Source: Sphingomonas aracearum
GTDB lineage: Bacteria; Pseudomonadota; Alphaproteobacteria; Sphingomonadales; Sphingomonadaceae
DNA length: 64,000 nt
Reading direction: 5' to 3'
Assembly: GCF_003345355.1 (NCBI RefSeq)
Contig: NZ_QQNB01000003.1
Coordinates: 62,001 to 126,000 of the forward strand
Below are positions 23,575 through 35,747 of this stretch, one piece after another. Position 1 is the stretch's first letter. Each line of letters starts with the position of its first letter. The position numbers and the translations under genes are program-made. The notes beneath the pieces were generated by a model. That model worked only from the letters and a program-made list of their open reading frames with translations, was not told where the DNA came from and did not search any database.

Positions 23575-24170
23575 GCCGGCATCACCTCGCGGGTGCGCAG
23601 ATAATCGAGGATCTGGAGCAGCGGCATGCCGAGGATGGTGAACTGGCTGCCGTCGATCCGCGCGAAGAGCTGCACGCCCGGCCCTTCGATGCGGAAGCAG
23701 CCGACACAGCCGGCGATCTCCGGCCATTCCGCGTCGAGATAGCTCTCGATAAAGGCAGGCGACAGCGGACGCACCCACAGCCGTGCCTGGTCGACATGGC
23801 GCCAGACGGGCGCGCCGCCTTCCGCGATCACCGCGGCGCTGAACAGGTCGATGCGCGTGCCCGACATGGCGGCAAGATGCGTGGCGGCATGCTCGCGGGA
23901 GTCCGGCTTGTCGAGGATCGTGCCGTCCGCCAGCACGACGATGCTGTCGCCGCCGAGCGTCAGCGCGCCGGGCACCCGCGCGGAAACCTTGCGCGCCTTC
24001 AACTCGGCAAGCGCATCGGCGAAGTCGCGCGGCGCAACACGGTCGGCGCGCAACGCCTCCTTGGCCGCGTCCTCGTCCACGCCGGCCGACACCGCCTCGA
24101 ACGGCACACCGGCGGCCAGCAGCATCGCCTTGCGCGAGGCGCTTTGCGAGGCGAGGATCAGCCGGCTCAT
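23571..24170 (-). CDS. maf: Maf family nucleotide pyrophosphatase
   Basis: 199 residues with the Maf signature: ILASQSASRKAMLLAAGVPFEAVSAGVDE at the start, LTLGGDSIVVLADG carrying the catalytic aspartate, DKPDSREHA, and a GCFRIEGPGVQLFARIDGSQFTILGMPL end. Maf proteins hydrolyse non-canonical nucleoside triphosphates. This one lies between the PpsR-type gene and aroE, overlapping each by 4 bp. Confidence 0.93.
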   Translation of the reverse strand: MSRLILASQSASRKAMLLAAGVPFEAVSAGVDEDAAKEALRADRVAPRDFADALAELKARKVSARVPGALTLGGDSIVVLADGTILDKPDSREHAATHLAAMSGTRIDLFSAAVIAEGGAPVWRHVDQARLWVRPLSPAFIESYLDAEWPEIAGCVGCFRIEGPGVQLFARIDGSQFTILGMPLLQILDYLRTREVMPA

Positions 24171-24982
24171 TCGTCTCCGTCCCGGTCCGTGACCAGCGCG
24201 ATCACCGCCGCGGCGGTTTCCTCGATCGAGCGGCGGGTGACGTCGATCACCGGCCAGCCATTGTCGGCGAACATGCGCCGGGCATAGGCCACCTCGCGGC
24301 TGACCGCCTCGTGATCGACATAGTCGGTGGCCGGCGCCTGGTTCAGGCTGAGCAGGCGGTTGCGGCGGACCTGGATCAGCCGGTCCGCGCTGGTGGTGAG
24401 GCCCACCACCAGCGGTCGCTTGAGCTCGAACAGGATCGGCGGCGGCGGGCTTTCCACCACGATGGGGATGTTGGCCGTCTTGAAACCACGATTGGCCAGA
24501 TAGATGCTGGTCGGCGTCTTGGACGATCGCGACACGCCCGCGAGCACGATGTCGGCCTGCTCCCAATCCTCCGACGCGATCCCGTCGTCATGCGCCATGC
24601 TCCACTGGATTGCATCGACGCGCGCGAAATAGCGGTCGTCCAGCACGTGCTGGCGACCGGCGCGGGCCTTGGCCTGCTGGCCGAGCAGGGCGGACACGGC
24701 ATCCACCACCGGATCGAGCGCGGCGACGGCGGGAAGGCCAAGCGCCATGCACCGCGTCTCCAGCCGCCGCCGGCTTTCCGCATTCACCAGCGTAAAGAGA
24801 ACCAGCCCGGGGTTCTGCGCGATCTCCTGAAGGATGCGCTCCAAATGCGCTTCGGTGCGGATCATCGGCCAGAAATGCCGAACGGGCTCCACATCGTCGT
24901 AGAGCGCGAGCACCGCTTTCGCGATGTTCTCCAGCGTCTCGCCGGTGGAGTCCGACAGGAGGTGGACGTGAAGCCGCCTCAT
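24167..24982 (-). CDS. Pyruvate,water/phosphate dikinase regulatory protein (DUF299, PpsR type)
   Basis: 271 residues: MRRLHVHLLSDSTGETLENI at the N-terminus, GVSRSSKTPTSIYLANRGFKTANIP (the P-loop-like motif) and VGLTTSADRLIQVRRNR. The family is a bifunctional ADP-dependent kinase and phosphotransferase controlling PEP synthase or PPDK. In Rickettsia and Caulobacter this gene (RP001 type) flanks the replication origin opposite hemE, exactly as here. It is the first gene of the minus-strand run leaving the origin. Confidence 0.93.
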   Translation of the reverse strand: MRRLHVHLLSDSTGETLENIAKAVLALYDDVEPVRHFWPMIRTEAHLERILQEIAQNPGLVLFTLVNAESRRRLETRCMALGLPAVAALDPVVDAVSALLGQQAKARAGRQHVLDDRYFARVDAIQWSMAHDDGIASEDWEQADIVLAGVSRSSKTPTSIYLANRGFKTANIPIVVESPPPPILFELKRPLVVGLTTSADRLIQVRRNRLLSLNQAPATDYVDHEAVSREVAYARRMFADNGWPVIDVTRRSIEETAAAVIALVTDRDGDE

Positions 24983-25259
24983 GAGGGGAAACGGGGCGGA
25001 ACTGTGGACAACATCGGGACGGGAGGTAGCGCAACCCGGACCTCCCGCCAACCGGTGGAAAAGCCCCGATCTGTCCACACGCGCATCCCCAGGCGAACAA
25101 CTTGTCCACCGCCTGTGGATAATGTGGACGCGCCGATCGAATCCGCGGCGTTCCGCGGCCTTCGCCGGGTCAAGCTGTTGGCATTTCGGGGGCGATTGCC
25201 TAAGCCACAGCACCCACGCGCCAACTCCCTCCTCATCCTTTTCAAGATTCTAGATTCTT
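24983..25259. other. Probable chromosomal replication origin (oriC)
   Basis: This intergenic region separates the divergent PpsR-type gene and hemE, the position of the Caulobacter and Rickettsia origins. It contains one perfect DnaA box, TGTGGATAA (25114-25122), a one-mismatch box TGTGGACAA (25003-25011) and weaker ones at 25071-25079, 25102-25110 and 25123-25131. Three GANTC sites for CcrM methylation lie at 25139-25143, 25246-25250 and 25253-25257. An AT-rich tract (about 25238-25262) next to hemE could be the unwinding element. Transcription points away from it on both sides, and parAB with parS lies within 10 kb. Confidence 0.8.
25114..25122 (-). promoter_or_regulatory. Perfect DnaA box
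   Basis: Read on the minus strand the site is TTATCCACA, an exact match to the DnaA consensus. It is flanked on both sides within 30 bp by degenerate TTGTCCAC-like sites, the clustering expected of an origin. Confidence 0.8.
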
Positions 25260-26315
25260 ATGAAGAATGGCTCTGCCCGACCTGTGAACAACGCGACGAA
25301 GCCGCTTCTGTCGGTGCTCGGCGGGGCAAAGCCCGCGGTGCCGCCGGTGTGGCTCATGCGGCAGGCGGGGCGCTATCTGCCGGAATATCGCGCGCTGCGG
25401 GCGGAAAAGGGCGGCTTTCTCGCGCTGGCGACCGATCCGGTGGCGGCGGCGGAGGTCACGCTCCAGCCGATCCGGCGGTTCGGCTTCGACGGGGCGATCC
25501 TGTTCTCCGACATCCTGATGGTGCCCTGGGCGCTGGGACAGGATCTCAGCTTCGGCGCGGGCGAGGGGCCGCGTCTGGCCCCTCCGCTGGTCGATGCCGC
25601 GCTGGCGAGCCTCCAGCAGGCTCCTGAGCGGCTCCAGCCGGTGTACGAGACGGTGCGGCAGGTCGCAGGTGCCCTGCCGTCGCAGACAACCTTTCTGGGC
25701 TTTGCTGGGAGCCCCTGGACGGTGGCGACGTACATGGTGGCCGGGCAGGGCAGCCGCGACCAGGGCGAGACGCGCGGATACGCCTATCGCGATCCGCAGG
25801 CTTTCGGCGAGATCGTCGCGGCGATCGAGGCGATGACGGTGGATTATCTCTCGGCGCAGATCGCAGCGGGCGTGGAAGCGGTGCAGCTGTTCGACAGCTG
25901 GGCCGGCAGCCTTTCCCCAGCGCAATTCGAGCAGTGGGTGATCGCGCCCAATGCGCGGATCGTGGCGGCGCTGAAGGCGCGGCATCCCGATGCCCCGGTG
26001 ATCGGCTTTCCCAAAGGCGCGGGCGGGAAGCTGCCTGCCTATGCCCGCGAAACCGGGGTGGACGCGGTCGGCCTGGACGAGACGGTGGACCCGGCCTGGG
26101 CGGATGCGGTGCTGCCCTCCGGCATGCCGGTGCAGGGCAATCTCGACCCGCTGGCGCTGATGGCGGGCGGCGCGGCGCTGGACAACGGCATCGACAGGGT
26201 GCTTGCCGCCTTTGCCGAGCGGCCGCATATCTTCAACCTGGGGCACGGCATCGGCCAGCATACGCCCATCGCGCATGTCGAGCAGCTGCTGCGGCGCGTG
26301 CGGGGCCAGGATTGA
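25260..26315 (+). CDS. hemE: Uroporphyrinogen decarboxylase
   Basis: 351 residues: WLMRQAGRYLPEYRALRAEKG (substrate-binding arginines), ILFSDILMVPWALG with the catalytic aspartate, FLGFAGSPWTVATYMVAG and LFDSWAGSLSP, ending FNLGHGIGQHTPIAHVEQL. It decarboxylates uroporphyrinogen III to coproporphyrinogen III in haem synthesis. Its start codon adjoins the AT-rich edge of the probable oriC, so its promoter lies inside the origin, as in Caulobacter. Confidence 0.96.
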   Translation: MKNGSARPVNNATKPLLSVLGGAKPAVPPVWLMRQAGRYLPEYRALRAEKGGFLALATDPVAAAEVTLQPIRRFGFDGAILFSDILMVPWALGQDLSFGAGEGPRLAPPLVDAALASLQQAPERLQPVYETVRQVAGALPSQTTFLGFAGSPWTVATYMVAGQGSRDQGETRGYAYRDPQAFGEIVAAIEAMTVDYLSAQIAAGVEAVQLFDSWAGSLSPAQFEQWVIAPNARIVAALKARHPDAPVIGFPKGAGGKLPAYARETGVDAVGLDETVDPAWADAVLPSGMPVQGNLDPLALMAGGAALDNGIDRVLAAFAERPHIFNLGHGIGQHTPIAHVEQLLRRVRGQD

Positions 26316-31585: not shown

Positions 31586-31599
31586 GTTCCACGTGGAAC
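31586..31599. other. parS centromere-like site 1
   Basis: GTTCCACGTGGAAC, a perfect 14-bp palindrome in the mnmE-mnmG gap. It matches the alphaproteobacterial parS core. The identical 16-mer CGTTCCACGTGGAACA occurs again at 33990-34005 inside rsmG. ParB (34842-35747) is the expected binding protein. Confidence 0.88.
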
Positions 31600-33455: not shown

Positions 33456-34063
33456 CCGAAGAGGAAGCGAAGAACTGGCTGGAGGAGCATTTCGGCGTCG
33501 AAGCGGTGGCGCGGTTGGAACCCATCGTTGCCGCCGTGCTGGCGGAAAATGCCCGGCAGAACTTGATTGCCCCATCAACGGTGGATCACATCTGGGAGCG
33601 GCATGTCGTGGACTCGGCGCAGCTCATCCTCCTGACCGATCGGGATGCGCGATCCTGGCTCGATATCGGGACGGGCGCGGGTTTTCCGGGCATGATCGTG
33701 GCCGCGCTCTGTGCTATGCCCGTGACCATGGTCGAGCCCCGCCGCCGTCGCGCCGATTTCCTGGATAGCCTGTCCCGCGCCCTGCGCTTCGAGCACGCAC
33801 AGGTGCGCGCGTCGAAGATCGAGACGGTCGAGGGGCAGTTCGACATCATTTCCGCCCGGGCGGTGGCCAGCGTCGATACGTTGTTCGTGTCGGCCAGCGG
33901 TGCTGCGCATGGCGGGACACGGTGGGTACTGCCGAAGGGGCGTGCCTGGTCTGACGAACTCGACGTGGCTCGACGGTATTGGCGAGGAACGTTCCACGTG
34001 GAACAAAGTGTCACCAGTCCAGAAGCTCGCATCATCGTGGCCCAAGGGGTGTCGCGCGCATGA
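33452..34063 (+). CDS. rsmG: 16S rRNA (guanine(527)-N7)-methyltransferase RsmG
   Basis: 203 residues: an N-terminal helical part with [27 protein letters not shown] motif [31 protein letters not shown], and [10 protein letters not shown]. It methylates G527 in the 530 loop of 16S rRNA; loss confers low-level streptomycin resistance in other bacteria. Its 3' end carries the second parS palindrome, encoding residues TFHVEQ. It overlaps mnmG upstream and parA downstream by 4 bp each. Confidence 0.95.
33991..34004. other. parS centromere-like site 2 (inside rsmG)
   Basis: GTTCCACGTGGAAC again, in the coding region of rsmG about 60 bp before the parA start. It is the same 16-mer as site 1, 2405 bp away. 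A parS site within rsmG next to parAB is a layout seen in other alphaproteobacteria. Confidence 0.88.
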
Positions 34064-34845
34064 ACATCATTACCGTTGCCAACCAGAAGGGCGGGGTCGG
34101 CAAGACCACCACGGCAATCAATCTGGGCACCGCGCTGGCTGCCGTGGGACAGCGCGTGTTGATCGTTGACCTCGATCCGCAGGGAAATGCGTCCACCGGC
34201 TTGGGCCTCAGCCAGTCGGCGCGCGCGCGGTCGACCTATGACGTGCTCTGTGGCGAGACGCCGGTGGTCGATGCTGCCGTCGCCACGGGCGTGCCGCGGC
34301 TGGAAGTCGTTCCCGCCACGGTGGACCTTTCCGGCGCGGAGATCGAGCTGGTCGAATATGCGGAGCGGACCCACCGGCTGGATCGGGCGCTGCGGCGGGT
34401 ACCCGCAGGGCGCTGGGACGCTGTGCTGATCGATTGTCCCCCATCGCTCGGGCTGCTGACGCTGAACGCTATGGTGGCATCGGACGCGCTGCTGGTGCCG
34501 CTGCAATGCGAGTTCTTCGCGCTGGAGGGGTTGAGCCAGCTGCTCAACACGGTTGAACGCATCCGTGAGCGGTTCAACCCTGGCCTCTCGATCCTTGGGG
34601 TGGTGCTCACCATGTATGATCGGCGCAACCGGCTGACCGACCAGGTCTCGGCGGACGTGCGCGCGGTGCTGGGTGGGGTAGTGTTCGAGACGGTTATCCC
34701 GCGCAACGTGCGGCTTTCGGAAGCGCCGAGTCACGGGCTGCCGGCGTTGATCTACGATCATCGCTGCTCCGGCTCCCAAGCGTATATCTCCCTGGCGCGT
34801 GAGATGATCCCGCGCCTTGCTCCTCTCTCGACGCAGGCCGCATGA
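34060..34845 (+). CDS. parA: Chromosome-partitioning ATPase ParA
   Basis: 261 residues: [20 protein letters not shown] (deviant Walker A), VDLDPQGNASTGLG (A' motif), and IDCPPSLGLLTLNAMVASDALLVPLQCEFFALEGLSQLL (Walker B and downstream). This is the chromosomal (Soj-like) ParA that forms a nucleoid-bound ATP gradient for origin segregation. The start at 34060 overlaps the rsmG stop; parB overlaps its stop. Confidence 0.96.
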   Translation: MNIITVANQKGGVGKTTTAINLGTALAAVGQRVLIVDLDPQGNASTGLGLSQSARARSTYDVLCGETPVVDAAVATGVPRLEVVPATVDLSGAEIELVEYAERTHRLDRALRRVPAGRWDAVLIDCPPSLGLLTLNAMVASDALLVPLQCEFFALEGLSQLLNTVERIRERFNPGLSILGVVLTMYDRRNRLTDQVSADVRAVLGGVVFETVIPRNVRLSEAPSHGLPALIYDHRCSGSQAYISLAREMIPRLAPLSTQAA

Positions 34846-35747
34846 CTGATCCGCTTCCCGTTCGCGCCAAGCCCCGGGGTGGTCTCGGCCGAGGCCTCAA
34901 CGCGCTGCTGGGCGAAGTCTCGCGCGAGGAGCCGGTCGCGCCCGGGGAGGCGCCGTCCTCCGGTGTGCGGATGCTGCCGGTCGGAGCGCTTGCCCCGCAC
35001 CCCGATCAGCCCCGCCGCCATTTCGCGGAAGCCGCGCTGGAAGAGCTTGCCTCCTCCATCGCCAGCCGCGGGCTGATCCAGCCGATCGTCGTGCGTCCGC
35101 ATGGCAAGGGGTATCAGATCGTTGCCGGCGAGCGCCGCTGGCGCGCCGCCCAGCGCGCACGGCTGCACGAAGTTCCCGCCATCGTGCGTGACTTCAACGA
35201 TGCCGAAACGCTGGAAGTCGCGCTGCTGGAGAATATCCAGCGCCAGGACCTCAATGCCATCGAAGAGGCCGAAGCCTATCAGCGCTTGATCGCGGAGTTC
35301 GACCACACGCAGGAGGCGCTGGCCAAGATCGTCCACAAGTCCCGCAGCCATGTGGCGAACCTGTTGCGACTGCTGGAACTACCCGCAACCGTGCAGGCGC
35401 GCGTGAGCGACGGCACGTTGACCATGGGTCATGCCCGCGCTTTGGTCGGGGCCGACGACGCCGAGGCGCTGGCGGACCAGGTGGTCGCAAAGGGCCTGTC
35501 GGTTCGCGACACGGAGCGCCTGGTCCGTTCGGTGAAGGCGGAGGTCACGCAGCGGGGCAGCGGCGGCGGAAGTGCGGGGGGCGAGGGCTCTGCCGACATC
35601 GCGGCACTGGAGCACCAGCTCGCCGATCTGCTCGGGCTGCCGGTGAAGATCAGCTTCGGGGCGAAGGGCGGTGCCGTGTCGCTGTCCTATTCCACCTTGG
35701 ACCAGCTGGACATGATCTGTCAGCGTCTGTCCGGCGATCGTCTCTAG
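34842..35747 (+). CDS. parB: Chromosome-partitioning protein ParB
   Basis: 301 residues: an N-terminal RGGLGRGLNALLG ParA-interacting motif, the CTPase domain with QPRRHF and IASRGLIQPIVVRP, GYQIVAGERRWRAAQRA, the HTH region (ALAKIVHKSRSHVANLLRLLELP) that reads parS, and a C-terminal dimerisation domain (KISFGAKGGAVSLSYSTLDQLD). It loads at parS and spreads as a CTP-dependent clamp. Its parS sites lie 0.8 and 3.2 kb upstream. Confidence 0.96.
   Translation: MTDPLPVRAKPRGGLGRGLNALLGEVSREEPVAPGEAPSSGVRMLPVGALAPHPDQPRRHFAEAALEELASSIASRGLIQPIVVRPHGKGYQIVAGERRWRAAQRARLHEVPAIVRDFNDAETLEVALLENIQRQDLNAIEEAEAYQRLIAEFDHTQEALAKIVHKSRSHVANLLRLLELPATVQARVSDGTLTMGHARALVGADDAEALADQVVAKGLSVRDTERLVRSVKAEVTQRGSGGGSAGGEGSADIAALEHQLADLLGLPVKISFGAKGGAVSLSYSTLDQLDMICQRLSGDRL

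Follow-up and report, generated by a model that had tools for sequence, protein, structure and literature searches.

Where on its chromosome does a Sphingomonas-like bacterium start replication? We examined this question for the short gap between ppsR and hemE in a 64,000-nucleotide stretch of genomic DNA (the window; Table 1). The gap extends 277 bp from the ppsR start at 24982 (− strand) to the first possible hemE ATG at 25260 (+ strand), with the two genes diverging and transcription of ppsR heading away from the origin. The profile matched by ppsR, PRK05339, is that of the PPDK/PEP synthase regulator (DUF299). Because an ATG was aligned to position 25260 in just 2 of 64 relatives, hemE may, on weak support, start at GTG 25284 instead, in which case the gap would measure 301 bp and the ORF drawn from 25260 would perhaps be too long; a start codon near GTG 25284 was found in only 15 of the 64 rows, in a spot where the alignment is loose. 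A scan of a genome collection with HemE placed the closest relatives in Sphingomonas (82% identity to Sphingomonas sp. RIT328).

The neighborhood itself has precedents. The Caulobacter origin (Cori) lies between hemE and COG1806, and predicted origins have been listed in related bacteria (PMC1914354), which agrees with the original prediction in its placement of hemE and a DUF299 gene on either side of the Caulobacter origin; its description of 277 bp between divergent DUF299 (PpsR-type) and hemE genes likewise matched the NCBIfam hits and coordinates. oriC is also near hemE in Sphingopyxis, and is predicted likewise for most Sphingomonadaceae in DoriC (PMC4741004). The predicted oriC of Sphingopyxis granuli TFA resembles the locus studied here in its position beside hemE, its conserved boxes, its putative duplex-unwinding element (DUE) and its conserved gene neighborhood, but it belongs to another genus, and we found no triplet array of the kind described below in main-text passages of PMC4741004. 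Origins adjacent to hemE are already published for the class and for sphingomonads, and the oriC proposed here adds one more.

Table 1. Features of the ppsR–hemE locus and the nearby partition genes (window coordinates).
Feature	Position	Strand	Basis or remark
ppsR (DUF299/COG1806), left flank	24167..24982	-	NCBIfam PRK05339, 320.8 bits vs cut-off 225
Proposed oriC	24983..25283	.	right edge 25259 or 25283, by hemE start chosen
DnaA box, one mismatch, TTGTCCACA	25003-25011	-	aligned box with ≤1 mismatch in 46/64 relatives
Weak DnaA box, two mismatches	25054-25062	-	motif scan
Weak DnaA box, two mismatches, CTGTCCACA	25071-25079	+	aligned box with ≤2 mismatches in 23/64 relatives
Weak DnaA box, two mismatches, TTGTCCACC, left half of inverted box pair	25102-25110	+	≤2 mismatches in 40/64 relatives
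DnaA box, exact, TTATCCACA	25114-25122	-	aligned box with ≤2 mismatches in 43/64 relatives, ≤1 in 31/64
GANTC (CcrM-type methylation) site, in conserved CGAATC	25139-25143	.	motif scan and alignment
Conserved GTCAAGCTGTTGGCA, candidate IHF site	25169..25183	+	two mismatches to WATCAANNNNTTR; conserved in sphingomonad alignment
Candidate tandem degenerate DnaA boxes, TAAGCCACA (2 mismatches) and GCACCCACG (4 mismatches)	25201-25218	+	face AT-rich side
C-anchored triplet array CAA CTC CCT CCT CAT CCT, candidate relaxed DnaA-trio array	25222..25239	+	trio strand taken as -
AT-rich stretch, probable duplex-unwinding element	25239..25268	.	lowest GC content (23%) of any 30-mer in the window
Two GANTC sites (25246-25250, 25253-25257) inside AT-rich stretch	25246..25257	.	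motif scan
hemE, right flank	25260..26315	+	TIGR01464, 374.3 bits vs cut-off 302.95
Weak DnaA box, two mismatches, within hemE 5′ end	starts 25283		motif scan
parS GTTCCACGTGGAAC	31586..31599	.	exact match; 6.3 kb from origin
parS GTTCCACGTGGAAC	33991..34004	.	exact match; 8.7 kb from origin
parB, chromosome partition system	34842..35747	+	TIGR00180, 199.5 bits vs cut-off 58.45

The gap contains a cluster of DnaA boxes. Scanning 313 nt from 24983 found 2 boxes with at most one mismatch, compared with 0.034 expected from shuffles, and 7 with at most two mismatches, compared with 0.37 expected; five of the seven (starting at 25054, 25071, 25102, 25201 and 25283) had exactly two. The exact box TTATCCACA occurred once in the 3,642,894 bp assembly, inside the gap, whereas a reversed control pattern occurred 12 times. 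When boxes were scored over 300 bp, the gap reached 11, compared with a maximum of 3 in the rest of the window and of 5 in 1,056,656 other sampled bases of the genome, which included positions 2001–62000 of the same contig (the assembly has 14 contigs, and ~31% of its sequence was read). With one mismatch allowed, the box had 128 places genome-wide. Among the matches listed, the first hundred or so of these 128, one other pair lay equally close, consisting of two single-mismatch boxes at 1199102–1199203 of contig C6, where the 300-bp score was 4. The tandem degenerate boxes were recovered unevenly in relatives, with at most two mismatches in 28 of 64 for the second and 6 of 64 for the first.

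Other origin-type motifs accompany the boxes. GANTC is scarce across the window (64 sites in 64 kb vs 267 expected from shuffles, a depletion of about four-fold), and its clustering in the gap is therefore conspicuous: three sites within 280 bp, or about ten times the local rate. One exact box, one single-mismatch box and weaker ones, three GANTC sites and an AT-rich stretch touching the hemE start had all been picked out from the letters beforehand, and the scans recovered each of them. In the alignment of relatives GTCAAGCTGTTGGCA stands out as a well-conserved motif of the sphingomonad origin that is not a box, and from its likeness to WATCAANNNNTTR, which we take to be the IHF consensus, we guess that it could be an IHF site.

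Comparison with Caulobacter showed both likenesses and differences. Cori, too, has GANTC sites. It further shares with the gap the same two flanking genes, DnaA boxes and an AT-rich stretch, and its IHF site may have a counterpart in the candidate motif here (PMC1914354). It differs in its G-box, TGATCCACA (PMC4285127), the main box here being TTATCCACA, and in its five CtrA sites. No CtrA site (TTAA-N7-TTAA) was found in the present gap at up to two mismatches, the best candidate having three, and a site with at most one mismatch occurred in the gaps of 5 of 64 relatives. Because some of the predicted origins in related bacteria have no CtrA sites (PMC1914354), such sites are not strictly defining.

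The partition genes lie close by. Only two exact copies of GTTCCACGTGGAAC exist in the genome, both within the window, and their distances of 6.3 and 8.7 kb from the proposed origin compare with ~8 kb for parS in Caulobacter (PMC6399470). According to the ORF list, a ParA-type ORF precedes parB, and GidA/GidB-like ORFs lie together with mnmE (an NCBIfam match) between the gap and the partition genes. The dnaA gene is on a different contig, C6.

The motifs of the gap recurred in relatives. Among the best 80 loci of the HemE scan, 66 had a reversed ppsR upstream of hemE, and 64 of these were assigned to the sphingomonads, by titles and identity rather than by a tree. Their gaps contained 49 exact boxes (in 33 of 64; 0.06 expected) and 147 boxes with at most one mismatch (in 62 of 64; 3.1 expected), and in 63 loci the density of GANTC was 13.5 per kb in the gap, compared with 2.1 per kb in the remainder of the locus. 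The alignment revealed a common order, with some rows missing some of the elements: CTGTGGATAA, (T)CATCCACAG, an inverted pair like TTTATCCACAG-CTGTGGATAACGGGGATAA, CGAATC, GTCAAGCTGTTGGCA, TAATCCCCG and [TA]TCCAC, GCC, C-anchored triplets and finally AT-rich DNA. Across the class, hemE was present in 98 of 115 alphaproteobacterial genomes, and we took upstream DNA from 60 of the 98 (two of them of the bacterium's own family); ppsR was reversed beside hemE in 48 of the 60, and 44 of those 48 had a box with at most one mismatch.

Strand polarity gave a divided answer. The original prediction had called for a GC-skew minimum at the gap. On the bacterium's own contig this did not come out cleanly: the skew is weak, and its cumulative curve over 2001–246000 reached its minimum at ~25.7 kb, about 61 kb left of the gap. 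In two relatives an origin-type turn of strand polarity lies at hemE or brackets it. All but one of the samples of the own contig to the right of the gap were G-rich. The polar motif GGGNAGGG, presumably KOPS, was found on the own contig as 5 + and 15 − occurrences at 2.0–70.2 kb and as 11 + and 2 − from 76.8 to 158 kb, which puts its sign change at 70–77 kb, 10–17 kb left of the gap; samples of two other contigs were strongly one-sided (C6, 11 + and 83 −; C7, 8 + and 50 −). With the local minimum 61 kb off, we dropped the skew of this genome as proof of its origin. GC skew has been found insufficient in several alphaproteobacteria (PMC1914354).

The two relatives had longer contiguous sequences. 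On the single 3.8 Mb scaffold of Sphingomonas phyllosphaerae FA2, the skew of the 240 kb around hemE reached its minimum at 3,075,084, ~3.5 kb from a box cluster at 3,071,521–3,071,640, and GGGNAGGG flipped from − to + at hemE, with the opposite turn near 1.0–1.4 Mb. In a one-contig genome of the same genus (G031), GGGNAGGG turned from − to + between the samples at 2.04 and 2.38 Mb, which narrows the turn only to 320 kb (2.06–2.38 Mb); hemE, at 2.208 Mb, falls inside this interval. The reverse turn, from + to −, came between the samples at 0.51 and 0.68 Mb (0.53–0.68 Mb). The dnaA gene was at 1.243 Mb in the former, near the terminus-type turn, and at coordinate 167 in the latter, inside the + arm; the origin-type turn is therefore at dnaA in neither.

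The skew minimum at ~25.7 kb and the motif's sign change at 70–77 kb would suit an origin that lies nearby yet outside the gap, for example 10–60 kb to the left. We regard this as very improbable, given that box scores did not exceed 3 elsewhere in the window or 5 in the 1.06 Mb that covered 2001–62000 of the same contig, that the turn in S. phyllosphaerae FA2 falls no more than 3.5 kb from the gap, and that the own-genome skew is shallow near the gap. An origin at dnaA, as in many bacteria, with the gap merely a pair of DnaA-regulated promoters (DnaA boxes do also occur in DnaA-controlled promoters), can hardly be right when dnaA is on another contig, the gap contains the assembly's only exact box, and dnaA sits within one arm in G031 and near the terminus-type turn in S. 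phyllosphaerae FA2.

Because independent lines agree, namely the boxes, their clustering, parS, conservation and the polarity turn in two relatives, the ppsR–hemE gap is almost certainly the chromosomal origin. The original prediction of oriC at this place is thus upheld by the sole exact box, the top box cluster of the scanned sequence, parS sites 6–9 kb off, and the boxes and polarity of relatives; position, motifs, conservation and relatives' polarity are direct observations. The genes around oriC would be expected at high dosage, and with the origin fixed for an unfinished genome, gene dosage, contig order and replication-linked gene placement would become readable.

How might this origin open? 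Here our attention turned to the triplet array, in which C occupies the first position of every triplet over 18 nt after the degenerate boxes and before the AT-rich stretch. Eleven sphingomonad rows lack an extra base (9 remain after thinning), and in these C made up 96% of phase 0, compared with 31% and 7% of the other phases. In the other 52 of 63 rows (47 after thinning), one extra base broke the phase mid-array and left two short runs, with C at a frequency of 0.98 at the first anchor, 0.96 at the second and 0.89 at each of two later ones, and mostly A/T between. Because these rows are related, their shared phase is not independent evidence, and the shuffle test on them gives no probability. 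Unbroken runs of at least four C-W-W were set aside as a measure: among the sphingomonads they occurred in 3 of 63 rows, where 0.22 were expected, and class-wide in 9 of 60, where 0.24 were expected, and because these rows were so few we switched to a phase score, which was designed after the sequences had been inspected and treats A and T alike.

Outside the family, where the test is more independent, we applied this score to 300 nt spanning the hemE start and the DNA upstream of it. In 21 of 58 alphaproteobacterial genomes C-anchored triplets reached the 99% point obtained by shuffling dinucleotides, and the other 37 fell short of it. In the controls, 3 of 58 reached it when the reverse complement was scored and none of 58 when DNA farther upstream was used. 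The 30 nt after the 21 matches were 50–93% AT, and in 13 of the 21 a forward box with at most two mismatches lay within 40 nt before the triplets. Random pieces drawn from these loci would give 0.45, and none of 200 draws gave more than 3. On the trio strand, the 119 C-anchored triplets had 50 T, 38 A and 31 G as their middle base, and the share of G is if anything understated because the score favors A/T at positions 2 and 3.

These counts bear on the possibility that the array is unrelated to DnaA and is instead a part of the hemE promoter or leader whose phase was simply inherited. Its end, ~20 bp before hemE (ATG 25260) or 44 bp before it (GTG 25284), would fit such a role, as would the relatedness of the sphingomonad rows and the 37 genomes below the 99% point. 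Since the 21 genomes stand against so few in either control, and forward boxes precede the triplets far more often than in random pieces, we consider this explanation rather unlikely.

The reading that involves DnaA draws on known systems. At the Bacillus subtilis origin, a box is oriented 5′ to 3′ in the direction of the triplets and the trio is on the other strand; taking the box here to point at the triplets by the same convention, we obtain a layout like that of the basal unwinding system (BUS) of that species. The BUS consists of tandem co-oriented DnaA boxes, a GC-rich spacer and DnaA-trios (PMC8287927, PMC6669920, PMC10721633), and the present locus has boxes, a short GC-rich spacer, a triplet repeat and AT-rich DNA in the same order. 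It departs from the BUS in that its triplets, which repeat a C every third base, read 3′-G-N-(A/T)-5′ and mostly have a base other than adenine in the middle, and in the window the boxes beside the AT-rich stretch are poor. The published BUS rule asks for three or more 3′-NAN-5′ triplets no farther than 16 bp from a DnaA box that has at most two mismatches (PMC8287927). In the window, the strand that faces the AT-rich stretch has no such match; the opposite strand has one, which involves the hemE 5′-end box with two mismatches. Canonical DnaA-trios were rejected for the sphingomonads, with matches on the + strand in 14 of 63 gaps compared with 19.5 expected from shuffled downstream sequence, and on the other strand in 10 of 63; class-wide the rule picked out 17 of 58 genomes, a count that has no control.

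In Escherichia coli oriC, a box faces the DUE. The single-stranded DUE motifs there are TTGT and TTATT (PMC5742627), and the lower strand of the array similarly reads as TTG/ATG repeats in many sphingomonads, with TTGTT, TTGAT or ATGAT present in 42 of 63 rows; the sphingomonad array differs in being phased by three bases and in having no 13-mers.

B. subtilis DnaA is reported to touch the amino group of the trio's middle adenine through Asn187, and opening is weakened by T or G at that place but not by C (PMC10721633). At the position of Asn187, the DnaA of our genome has Phe, and a class set made up of the best 30 of 115 genomes, L300 and the own protein has Tyr in 28 and Phe in 4 of 32. In 24 further Sphingomonadales the residue was F in 13, V in 8, I in 2 and L in 1, such that all 56 genomes examined have an aromatic or large hydrophobic residue. 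In other classes of the phylum (the best-scoring 27 of 88 genomes) it was A in 11, Q in 9, T in 4, S in 2 and N in 1, and never aromatic. Loss of Asn187 was accordingly discarded as a mark of the class: because other classes also rarely have Asn there, the class is distinguished only by having a residue that is aromatic or large and hydrophobic. Of the residues that contact the first-position guanine, E228 was kept in 56 of 56, and R202 was replaced by Lys in 56 of 56, as is usual in other classes (25 of 27).

With E228 kept and C anchoring the triplets, DNA and protein both appear to keep the guanine side and to depart at the middle base, a match that is a correlation at the level of the class. 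On these sequence comparisons we tentatively suggest, at somewhat less than an even chance, that alphaproteobacterial origins carry a relaxed DnaA-trio, 3′-G-N-(A/T)-5′, with a fixed guanine and a middle base that can be T, A or G, and that it is read by a DnaA that has Tyr, Phe or another large hydrophobic residue in place of Asn187. In largely open-access texts on the DnaA-trio together with Alphaproteobacteria or Caulobacter, we found no description of alphaproteobacterial triplets lacking adenine. If the suggestion is true, the open remark in the literature about trios without a central adenine would turn into a direct oligonucleotide test, and there would be a matching change of the DnaA pocket in a class that includes the cell-cycle model Caulobacter.

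From known systems we infer every step of DnaA binding and DNA opening at this oriC. DnaA would bind the strong boxes at 25003 and 25114 and then fill the weak ones, perhaps aided by an IHF bend at the conserved 25169–25183 motif. A DnaA filament would grow rightwards across the degenerate tandem boxes (25201–25218) onto the triplet array (25222–25239) and open the AT-rich DNA at 25239–25268 against hemE, where the helicase would be loaded. Methylation of GANTC may time re-initiation, and ParB on the two parS sites 6–9 kb off would separate the copied origins.

Several relatives showed individual features. In three loci of the HemE scan (L045, L068 and L072), ppsR was not found upstream of hemE; the next gene is reversed and matches the maf of the window at 45–49% identity. 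Boxes with at most one mismatch beside hemE numbered none in L045, one in L068 and two in L072, and a GCTGTTGGCA-like motif was readable in all three. From these sequences, the origin seems to stay with hemE where ppsR is lost. In Sphingomonas panni, nine exact TTATCCACA boxes, all on a single strand, lie in 43 kb around the hemE locus (contig C1, 720030–762951), compared with 3 to 10 per whole genome in 21 other genomes; this group could be a DnaA-titrating cluster. Finally, two records titled Microvirga sp. SRT01 (L028) and Bacillus sp. 2B10 (L056) carry sphingomonad-like ppsR–hemE loci, with 72–81% identity to the window in HemE and in PpsR, which makes these titles look wrong.
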